This document shows positions 1,900 to 4,174 of a stretch of DNA of 35,563 bases, piece after piece; positions within the stretch are counted from its first letter, which is position 1, and every line of letters starts with the position of its first letter. The DNA lies in the NCBI GenBank assembly GCA_029862085.1, contig JAOTXZ010000012.1, positions 1 through 35,563 of the forward strand, given 5' to 3'. The stretch is from Candidatus Nitrosopumilus sp. Lineage in GTDB: Archaea > Thermoproteota > Nitrososphaeria > Nitrososphaerales > Nitrosopumilaceae. The notes beneath the pieces are model-generated. The model worked only from the letters and a program-made list of their open reading frames with translations. It searched no databases and was not told the DNA's origin. Position numbers and translations under genes: made by a program.

Positions 1900-2250
1900 G
1901 TGGATAGAATAAAGCGTCTTTCATACGAAGTACTAGATCAACACAAATCAAAATTCACAGAAAATTTTACTGATAATAAAAAACTACTAGGAGATTTGAC
2001 AATCATTCGTTCAAAGGGATTAAAAAATGAAATTGCTGGATATATTACTAAATTTATTAAAAAAGAAAATTATGAACAGGAACTAAATGAAGCCAAAGCA
2101 GATTCTTCAAAGGATGAAAGCACTCCAATAGAGGAAACTGGAGAAGAGCAAATTTCAGCTCCTGAGGCAGAAGAGGATGTCATTGAAATTGGCGAAGAAC
2201 CAGTAGATGTTCCTGAAACCAAAGCCAAAGCAGAAGAAAAAACTGAATAG
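1900..2250 (+). CDS. rps17e: 30S ribosomal protein S17e with acidic C-terminal tail
   Basis: Residues 1-57 match archaeal/eukaryal S17e, with the RIKRLSYEVL start, the FTDNKKLLGDLTII segment and the conserved RSKGLKNEIAGYITKFIKK helix. S17e belongs to the small subunit. The start is GTG, with TATAAAA at 1870-1876 about 27 bases upstream. The protein is 116 residues, while archaeal S17e is usually 60-70. The additional C-terminal half is low-complexity and strongly acidic (Glu/Asp-rich with Pro, Ser, Thr), ending in a short KAKAEEKTE segment. This tail is unlike a ribosomal rRNA-binding tail and is probably disordered. Next gene follows after 41 bases with its own TATA box. Confidence 0.85.
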   Translation: MDRIKRLSYEVLDQHKSKFTENFTDNKKLLGDLTIIRSKGLKNEIAGYITKFIKKENYEQELNEAKADSSKDESTPIEETGEEQISAPEAEEDVIEIGEEPVDVPETKAKAEEKTE

Positions 2251-2261
2251 TTTTTCAAAAA

Positions 2262-2268
2262 ATTAAAT
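2262..2268 (+). promoter_or_regulatory. TATA-like box of the ubiquitin-like/Cgi121 gene
   Basis: ATTAAAT centred 27 bases before the ATG at 2292, supporting that ATG, and therefore the ubiquitin-like domain, as part of the product. Confidence 0.45.
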
Positions 2269-2291
2269 TCCTAACCAGAGTAATCCAAACT

Positions 2292-3068
2292 ATGGTAACT
2301 GTAAAACTAGTAGGTGGAGCAAAAAAACTATTTTCCACTGACCAATTAGAAATTGAAATAGATGATATTACTATTGAAAAATTACTAGAATTGCTCTTAG
2401 AGATTAAACCAAAAAATACGCCCACTCTGGATACAAATAACATTTTGATAGCAATTAACGGGGCTGATTCTTCTTCCATGGAGGGAAAATTGACTCAAAT
2501 TAAAAATAGTGACCTAGTAAGTATTATACCAATAATTCATGGAGGTTCTAATAAAAAAATTGTAATTAAAAATGGAAGAAAATTAATTCAGATAGTAGAG
2601 ATAAAAGGAAGCAAGGAAATTGATGTTTCTTTTCTTGATGGCCTTAGAAAAGACTTTCCTAAAATTAAATTTCAAGCAATTTCAAGTAAATTTATTCTAA
2701 ATTCATACCATTTAAAAAAAATCCTTTCGATATCTACAACTTCAGAGAAGGAAGATATTTTACTTTCAAACAAACTTGAAACAGACATTTTGATGCGTTT
2801 TGCAGCCACAAAACAAATTGCTGACGCGATTATTTCTGCAGGAATTAAACCAAACAATAATTTTATCTTAATAGCAATAGGAAACAAAGCAATATTGGAT
2901 AAGCTCTATCAAAAATTAAATCCATTTACTACAGAAATTTTTTCTAAAGATAATTCATCCTTTTTAAAAAAACACTTCAAAATAACCAAAAAACAATTAG
3001 ATTCCATTTATTCAAAGACACCTTTGGAAGATTTATTGATTGAAAAAGGGGCTATTCTAGTCAGATAA
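2292..3068 (+). CDS. cgi121: MoaD/ThiS-like (ubiquitin-fold) domain fused to KEOPS subunit Cgi121
   Basis: Residues 1-85 look like a MoaD/ThiS/SAMP beta-grasp domain: VTVKLVGGAKKLF opening strand, helix around 28-40, LIAINGAD hairpin, and the typical ending DLVSIIPIIHGG with the Gly-Gly at residues 84-85. In free family members this diglycine is the thiocarboxylated or conjugated C-terminus. Here the chain continues without a stop into a Cgi121-like domain (about 90-258), recognisable by LMRFAATKQIADAIISAGIKP and ILIAIG. Cgi121 is the KEOPS subunit that binds the tRNA 3' end during t6A37 formation. Sua5, which makes the KEOPS substrate, is encoded 0.5 kb away. The 3' end overlaps the convergent THUMP gene by 12 bases. 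Whether the protein is cut after Gly85 is unknown. Confidence 0.75.
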   Translation: MVTVKLVGGAKKLFSTDQLEIEIDDITIEKLLELLLEIKPKNTPTLDTNNILIAINGADSSSMEGKLTQIKNSDLVSIIPIIHGGSNKKIVIKNGRKLIQIVEIKGSKEIDVSFLDGLRKDFPKIKFQAISSKFILNSYHLKKILSISTTSEKEDILLSNKLETDILMRFAATKQIADAIISAGIKPNNNFILIAIGNKAILDKLYQKLNPFTTEIFSKDNSSFLKKHFKITKKQLDSIYSKTPLEDLLIEKGAILVR

Positions 3069-3578
3069 ACTTCGCTTAGTTTTTTCAACACTTAAAATAT
3101 CAGACTTTTTAAGAATTGAAATTCCTGTTCTTGCCCCCAAAATCTCTATTTGAACAACCTTGTCTGGATTTTCCAATGATACCTTGTTTTTGATTTTATC
3201 TGCAACTTTGGTAATCAATTCTTTACTTGAGATATCTGAATTTCTTTTTTCAATGGATATTCTGTAAGATTCTTCCTTTGAAATTGAATCTACCAATTCT
3301 GAAACTTTTTCTTCAATATCCTCAATGTTAGTATCTGATACTTTTTGTATGGGAATTATTCGAAGACAATATCTAATACTCCAAGGTTCTTCAATTATTG
3401 ACTCGTGAATTTTTCTTACTACCACAAAGGGATCTAACTCCGTCTCTGCAGTCAGGATTCCTGACATACTGGTTATCACTATTTTGGGTTCAGAATCGCC
3501 TAGCTCTTCCAAAATTCTTGCTATCTCTTCTTTGGTTTCAGGTTCCAGGTGTCTAGCGCAGGTAATTAATAAATTCAA
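3057..3578 (-). CDS. THUMP-domain protein, Tan1-like
   Basis: A 173-residue protein whose core resembles the THUMP RNA-binding domain: an N-terminal NLLITCARHLEPETKEEI module, then SIRYCLRIIPIQKVS near residue 90 and a C-terminal VVQIEILGARTGISILK strand-helix. Stand-alone THUMP proteins of this size are the archaeal relatives of yeast Tan1, which helps the acetyltransferase Kre33/Nat10 make ac4C12 in tRNA. There is no methyltransferase or thiolase domain attached. The gene overlaps the upstream Sua5 gene by 4 bases (ATGA) and is surely co-transcribed with it. The Tan1 assignment is by domain architecture, so a different tRNA-modification role remains possible. Confidence 0.75.
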   Translation of the reverse strand: MNLLITCARHLEPETKEEIARILEELGDSEPKIVITSMSGILTAETELDPFVVVRKIHESIIEEPWSIRYCLRIIPIQKVSDTNIEDIEEKVSELVDSISKEESYRISIEKRNSDISSKELITKVADKIKNKVSLENPDKVVQIEILGARTGISILKKSDILSVEKTKRSLSD

Positions 3579-4174
3579 ATGGATTCCATAATCTCCTCTT
3601 CTTTCAAGGCCCCAATCCTATGAAAAATTGAATTTCCTTGGTCCATTTCTAGAATTGTTGATTCCACGCCATTCTTAATATCTCCACCATCCAAAAAAAT
3701 ATCAAAATCTTGTACTTTTTGATAGCACTCTTGAGAATTTGTAAATGAATTTTCTCCAGAAATATTTGCGCTAGTTCCAACTAATAATTTACAATTTTTC
3801 AAAAGATCCAATAAACATTGATTATTTGGAACACGTATTGCTATTTTGTCTTCTAGATTTAGAGAATTTTTTAATTGCTCATCTTTTAATTTTAAAATTA
3901 ACGTTAAGGGTCCTGGCCAAAATCTTTCAGCAATTTTCTTTGAAATCTTATCGAATTCTATTATTTCAGATACAACATCCATTGAATATGCTAAAAGGGG
4001 AAATGGTTTTGATTTTGGCCTTTCTTTGATTTGATAAATTTTATCAACTGATTTTTTGTTGTAAGGATCACATCCCATTCCATAAACTGTATCTGTTGGA
4101 AAAACAACAATTCCACCATTTTTTACAACTTTGAGGGAGTTTTCAATACCCTCTTGGTCACATTTTACTTTCAA
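3575..4174 (-). CDS. sua5: Threonylcarbamoyl-AMP synthase (Sua5/YrdC/TsaC)
   Basis: A 199-residue YrdC-fold protein making threonylcarbamoyl-AMP from threonine, bicarbonate and ATP, the first step of t6A37 synthesis. Family features seen: GGIVVFPTDTVYGMGCDP near residues 19-36, the K-x-R-P-K-S-K-P-F-P nucleotide-binding segment near 50-59, RFWPGPLTLIL near 85, IAIRVPNN near 112, and VGTSANISGE near 132. It has the single YrdC domain and lacks the extra C-terminal domain of longer Sua5 proteins. The start is TTG; a TTAATTA box lies about 26 bases upstream at 4196-4205. It leads an operon with the Tan1-like gene and faces the Cgi121 fusion gene. Confidence 0.9.
   Translation of the reverse strand: MKVKCDQEGIENSLKVVKNGGIVVFPTDTVYGMGCDPYNKKSVDKIYQIKERPKSKPFPLLAYSMDVVSEIIEFDKISKKIAERFWPGPLTLILKLKDEQLKNSLNLEDKIAIRVPNNQCLLDLLKNCKLLVGTSANISGENSFTNSQECYQKVQDFDIFLDGGDIKNGVESTILEMDQGNSIFHRIGALKEEEIMESI

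Follow-up and report, generated by a model that had tools for sequence, protein, structure and literature searches.

The gene at 2292-3068 on the plus strand of the window (the whole stretch of DNA analysed, 35,563 nucleotides) reads from an ATG start into a protein of 258 aa in which a ubiquitin-like (Ubl) domain of the MoaD/Urm1/SAMP type is joined directly to Cgi121 of the KEOPS complex, with a His-Gly-Gly at the join that is invariant among the family loci read. On balance we lean towards regarding this protein as a linear Ubl precursor, which would have arisen by a stop-loss fusion and would be cut after Gly85 by a JAMM protease.

The original prediction described a beta-grasp-like N-terminus ending in IIPIIHGG that continues directly into Cgi121, and both parts of that description hold. 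The Pfam ThiS profile matches residues 4–85 with 30.0 bits (cut-off 22.5), Pfam CGI-121 (PF08617) matches residues 122–251 with 32.7 (cut-off 25), and the NCBIfam Cgi121 equivalog NF011465 scores 153 bits (cut-off 40); the fusion protein scores below the cut-offs of the NCBIfam MoaD, Urm1 and SAMP1 models. Structure alignments made with Foldseek and VIA-align place residues 1–85 on MoaD/Urm1/SAMP1 chains (Z about 8–12) and residues ~88–258 on chains of Cgi121 and of human TPRKB, with Z reaching 17.3, and thus the boundary between the two folds coincides with the Gly-Gly. The AlphaFold model of the fusion has a mean pLDDT of 89 and a pTM of 0.67, falling below 50 at residues 83–85, which are the HGG, at the position originally given for it. 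Throughout the fused family the Gly-Gly is internal and does not end the encoded protein; it would become terminal only after a cleavage.

A separate start giving Cgi121 alone, a possibility raised with the original prediction, was considered and rejected. No in-frame ATG, GTG or TTG occurs in the 35 codons behind the Gly-Gly of the window gene, and the in-frame start codons that 23 of the 34 genes scanned carry somewhere in those 35 codons vary in position and stand at no shared place.

Table 1. Features of the fusion gene and its neighbours in the window.
Feature	Coordinates	Strand	Evidence
S17e-like ribosomal protein, upstream neighbour	1900..2250	+	Pfam S17e; 79/80 named loci
TATA-like A/T-rich block, 23-33 bases 5' of ATG	2259..2269	+	by eye
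Ubl domain, residues 1-85, beta-grasp of MoaD/ThiS/Urm1/SAMP type	2292..2546	+	Pfam ThiS, structure alignment
His83-Gly84-Gly85, invariant tail, proposed cut site after base 2546	2538..2546	+	102/102 f1 loci; pLDDT <50
Variable short linker S-N-K, residues 86-88	2547..2555	+	high column variability behind the Gly-Gly
Cgi121 domain, residues ~89-258	2556..3065	+	CGI-121, NF011465, VIA-align
Stop codon of the fusion ORF	3066-3068	+	
Sua5/TsaC-type L-threonylcarbamoyl-AMP synthase (t6A pathway), convergent	3575..4174	-	TIGR00057 above cut-off

By eye, an A/T-rich block comparable to that of the window lies about 23–33 bases 5' of the ATG in nine upstream regions from the same genus, a comparison that, short of a promoter test, is supportive of the TATA box proposed earlier. 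The S17e-like neighbour scores narrowly below the cut-off of the NCBIfam S17e model and carries a long acidic C-terminal extension. The Sua5/TsaC neighbour is present in 77 of the 80 named loci, some of these being truncated, and the complete six-gene order is found in 67 of the 80. In the window, the minus strand at 3057-4174 encodes a THUMP-domain protein and Sua5/TsaC, both convergent to the fusion gene. One of the two seed patterns behind the 80 named loci contained HGG, and these loci were therefore used for neighbours and for no count of the Gly-Gly.

The window belongs to a 1.3 Mb assembly of 38 contigs that is 79% complete. Named relatives at the locus are Nitrosopumilus, Nitrosarchaeum and other Nitrosopumilaceae, from which we infer that the family treated here (f1) is Nitrosopumilaceae. 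A match to the fusion is present in 155 of 160 family genomes, comprising the genome of the window and 159 with at least 85% completeness. Counted as distinct genomes, 159 of 164 have a match; 102 of these sequences were read, E1-less and divergent genomes being taken first, and 57 were left unread. The ThiS profile gave no stand-alone Ubl gene in 37 family genomes: their 58 ThiS matches all lie in frames of at least 245 residues, which by coordinates are 34 Cgi121 fusions and 24 fusions with E1.

Conservation of Gly84-Gly85 among orthologs, which had been put forward as a check on the prediction, is complete, with HGG in 102/102 of the family loci read (97 of 98 by script, the split 98th, and 4 more). 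In the first 34 sequences, mean column entropy is 0.27 for the eight-residue tail that ends in Gly-Gly versus 2.25 for the next 20 columns; with 1.55 in the remainder of the Ubl and 1.60 in the remainder of Cgi121, those 20 columns vary most among the four regions. All four glycine codons occur at both Gly positions in the same 34 sequences. A tree of 96 family sequences was built by a quick method with the HGG letters masked, keeping two sequences without E1 status and leaving out the split sequence of G075 and the partial one of G029. This tree, computed from the fusion protein itself and standing in for a species tree, leaves 39 of 93 inner branches open; on it, parsimony counts 42 and 32 codon changes at the two glycines (74 in total) and zero amino-acid changes. 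The HGG columns are among 17 of 257 without any amino-acid change on that tree.

The genome search suggested for E1-like and JAMM proteins recovered both in the genome of the window: an E1 that is itself a Ubl-E1 fusion, and two JAMM proteins. Across the family, a PF00899 (E1) match is missing in 34 of 160 genomes, 14 of the 34 having been identified by comparing genome lists, and 10 further genomes are without a match of Ubl-E1 strength, 7 of them having matches only below the cut-off. G011, G022 and G113 have only matches of another E1 type (E 1e-39 to 1e-14) and may therefore still have an activating enzyme. HGG is kept in 33/33 of the E1-negative genomes with a fusion match (32/32 full sequences and the partial sequence of G185), G019 being the sole one of the 34 without such a match. 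It is likewise kept in 9/9 read of the 10 genomes without a match of Ubl-E1 strength, the tenth (G002) being without a fusion match.

Those nine were scored as E1-less in the tree analysis. With all 44 genomes of the two groups scored as E1-negative, 41 of them in the tree, E1 presence needs at least 23 changes. E1 was scored as lost wherever all tips below a branch were without it. On the branches so scored, the two glycines underwent 24 codon changes, none of which altered the amino acid, and for branches wholly inside E1-less clades the tally is 11 synonymous and 0 other; changes per column on E1-less branches are 5.28 in the Ubl domain versus 5.14 in Cgi121. These counts indicate that selection maintains the Gly-Gly even in genomes without a detected E1; if it does persist without E1, the motif must serve something other than E1 chemistry there. 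The E1 absences may partly be assembly gaps, none of the E1-negative genomes read being a single-contig assembly. As a control for such gaps, 34 of 160 genomes are without E1 compared with 5 of 160 without the fusion (Fisher p 6e-7), and only 1 of 160 is without a JAMM match.

The E1 fusion contains a second Ubl, placed N-terminal to E1 with an internal [AS]GG (L072:284-1624, own genome C13; L236-L255). The motif is kept at the Ubl-E1 join in 21/21 read, and G005 has two copies of the fusion. Matches to PF01171 are present in 158 of 160 family genomes, with many of the genomes having weak matches alone, including the one-contig assembly G072. Five genomes yielded a full-length NcsA/TtuA-like protein, which persists in the four E1-less ones examined; the one submitted to Pfam scores narrowly below the cut-off of TtuA_LIM_N. 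A molybdenum-cofactor role was rejected for the family, since MoaE matched in only 1 of 160 genomes.

JAMM proteins match in 159 of 160 family genomes, and in 33 of the 34 where E1 has no match at all. The two JAMM proteins encoded in the window's own genome exceed the Prok-JAB cut-off and, judged by eye, display the HxH...S..D pattern, and the gene has what a JAMM-processed precursor calls for, a Gly-Gly followed by a further domain together with a JAMM protein in the same genome. G028 (90% complete, 350 contigs) gave no match to E1 or to JAMM and keeps HGG; three JAMM matches were found in G066, of the same genus, and what is missing in G028 is probably, but not certainly, an assembly gap. 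Outside the family, G050 (L069/L268) has a fused Ubl-Cgi121 homolog without the Gly-Gly, proof that a fusion lacking the motif is possible. Its assembly, 82% complete and alone in its family, yielded no E1 and no JAMM. The link of Gly-Gly loss with absent JAMM and E1 is therefore one case only, and G028 opposes it. In G011, a JAMM-like match below the cut-off stands directly before the E1-like match of the other type (G011:C5:1244-2464), a pair that may represent a Ubl or defence system of its own.

Among 24 genomes of the same order outside f1, 14 have Ubl and Cgi121 as separate neighbouring frames, 3 have a Ubl without a Cgi121 match nearby (G042, G043, G044), 2 lack a Ubl match but have a Cgi121 (G039, G045), and the other 5 are the GG-less fusion of G050 and four genomes with no match (G047, G054, G058, G059). 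Ubl and Cgi121 also stand side by side in some distant families of the phylum. The unfused outgroup Ubls (n=17) end exactly at the Gly-Gly in 10 cases, one of them being AGG and not HGG; 6 carry 1–9 residues behind HGG, so that some already needed trimming, and that of G046 runs through HGG into a phosphoribosyltransferase domain (Pfam). The same Ubl-HGG-phosphoribosyltransferase arrangement (Pfam), with Cgi121 as the next gene, was seen at L060:976-1833, L256:289-1221 and L257:294-1205 in families f11 and f42.

In 4 of the 14 pairs (G038, G057, G055, G051), Cgi121 lies in the same frame as the Ubl and is open directly behind the Ubl stop. Given these unfused neighbours, four of them with an open Cgi121 frame, the fusion looks like the result of a lost stop codon, and in the simplest history two genes that had long been neighbours would have lost the intervening stop codon in the family's ancestor. 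Secondary breaks are present in two family genomes (G075, G100), both at most 10 codons after HGG and with the domains whole; in G075, a TGA one codon after HGG splits the gene (HGGA). Both breaks may be sequencing errors, and no inside stop occurs in the other full family matches among the matches listed.

We propose that the gene would encode a linear precursor with an Urm1/SAMP-like Ubl ending in HGG, head to tail with Cgi121. A JAMM-type metalloprotease of the cell would cut after Gly85 and free a Ubl with a C-terminal Gly-Gly, which may then have a role of its own, and the released Cgi121, starting within ~4 residues of its usual N-terminus, would join KEOPS for t6A synthesis. A stop codon lost between these long-standing neighbours would have been tolerated because the protease restores both products. 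The freely varying linker behind an invariant Gly-Gly, the low-confidence hinge and the position of the boundary at the Cgi121 N-terminus support this reading, as do the synonymous codon turnover at the two glycines, the near-universal JAMM matches, the outgroup Ubls that carry residues behind their Gly-Gly, the two breaks shortly after HGG and, as a single case, G050. Of the three functional options offered by the original prediction, release by a JAMM-type protease fits best. Its Ubl fold, internal Gly-Gly and Cgi121 domain were all borne out, and the JAMM and E1 proteins it proposed to look for are present, whereas its coupling of tRNA thiolation to t6A is weakened because the Gly-Gly is unchanged where no E1 was found; its fixed docking module is a less likely alternative.

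Some observations pull the other way. G028, which keeps HGG with no E1 or JAMM match and so is the opposite of G050, counts against a precursor. A sulfur carrier would also keep the Gly-Gly in genomes with E1, so conservation there does not single out cleavage. We know of no use for a free Ubl-GG where E1 is absent. It is conceivable, though somewhat doubtful, that in the lineages that have lost E1 the ubiquitin-fold protein retains a function and a strictly selected Gly-Gly with no activation at all, the motif being needed only for cleavage by a protease or as a non-covalent tail, KEOPS assembly then hanging on the JAMM cut and not on Ubl chemistry. On E1-less branches, conservation of the Ubl domain matches that of Cgi121, so that an uncut Ubl with a non-covalent role also fits.

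Precedents exist for the proposed cut. Haloferax HvJAMM1 cuts a linear SAMP1-MoaE after its GG both in vivo and in vitro, according to the sections available to us (PMC4443979). The present protein resembles SAMP1-MoaE (Ubl-MoaE) in its N-terminal Ubl, internal GG, complete enzyme domain and the presence of a JAMM in the cell; its partner is Cgi121 of KEOPS and not MoaE, and the cut demonstrated there is predicted here. Caldiarchaeum CsRpn11 cuts its own Ub precursor after Gly-Gly and leaves the SAMP precursors of C. subterraneum unprocessed, a separate CsJAMM being described as their partner in the available part of that study (PMC6043591). Not every JAMM, therefore, cuts every Ubl. Eukaryotes make ubiquitin-ribosomal protein fusions, precursors with residues behind the Gly-Gly that are processed by peptidases. 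Residues behind the Gly-Gly are common to these fusions, the CsUb precursor (PMC6043591) and the present gene, although its Ubl is closer to MoaD/Urm1 than to ubiquitin and the candidate peptidases searched for here are of JAMM type only.

The main alternative to a precursor is that the fusion is never cut, the Ubl being a permanent KEOPS module with a recruiting or regulatory role (towards NcsA/TtuA, the proteasome or tRNA, for instance) and the HGG a conserved flexible hinge or binding tail. Conservation of the Ubl domain where no E1 is found, the low confidence of the modelled hinge, the GG-less fusion in G050 and the HGG kept in G028 without a JAMM match would all suit such a module. It accounts poorly for residues that vary freely behind a Gly-Gly that does not, for unfused and re-split versions that keep the Gly-Gly at or near the end of the Ubl, and for outgroup Ubls with short tails behind it, and we regard a permanent module as rather unlikely.

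Release might also serve thiolation, the free Ubl acting as an E1-activated sulfur carrier for NcsA/TtuA (2-thiouridine) and linking wobble thiolation to t6A, with the E1-less genomes as recent losers whose Gly-Gly has yet to decay. The near-universal PF01171 matches, many of them weak, and the full-length NcsA/TtuA-like proteins point in this direction, as does the joint action of SAMP2, UbaA and NcsA in Haloferax (PMC4048286, in the part available). The 11 synonymous and 0 other glycine changes inside E1-less clades argue against mere lag, however, and E1 has a Ubl of its own, so that we find the carrier improbable. The least probable is a constitutive sampylation in which the linked Ubl holds Cgi121 inactive until a JAMM removes it, making t6A output subject to regulation. 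SAMP1-MoaE does need HvJAMM1 to support DMSO respiration (PMC4443979), Makarova and Koonin (2010; PMC2948915) raised regulation of KEOPS by SAMPylation, and Cgi121, which binds the CCA end of tRNA, has been proposed through its level as a control point of KEOPS (PMC7718258), all as given in the available sections of these papers; immediate removal of the Ubl would leave nothing to regulate.

The preferred reading, a precursor cut by JAMM, builds on an architecture already on record. Makarova and Koonin (2010; PMC2948915) reported a Ubl-Cgi121 fusion in all thaumarchaeal genomes then available, together with the S17 neighbour and a Ubl-E1 fusion, and suggested SAMPylation of KEOPS. The architecture was therefore already known, which answers a question that the original prediction had left open, and the present gene agrees with the 2010 fusion in architecture, S17 neighbour and lineage. 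Section 3.2 of that paper is without Gly-Gly conservation, E1 loss, a stop-loss origin or unfused relatives, all of which are treated here. Among open-licence PMC papers we found no later work on the function of the Ubl-Cgi121 fusion, and a Ubl fusion was not found in the available parts of three KEOPS papers (PMC9654439, PMC9889334, PMC10989989). As far as our searches show, the additions made here are selection on the Gly-Gly without a detected E1, the proposed stop-loss origin and the GG-less exception.

These results are relevant to the origin of Ubl fusions, ubiquitin-ribosomal protein genes included, and to the question of whether a Ubl is tied into t6A synthesis in ammonia-oxidising archaea. 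Should the Gly-Gly of the E1-less lineages indeed be needed for cleavage alone, KEOPS assembly in a widespread ammonia-oxidising lineage would depend on a JAMM cut.
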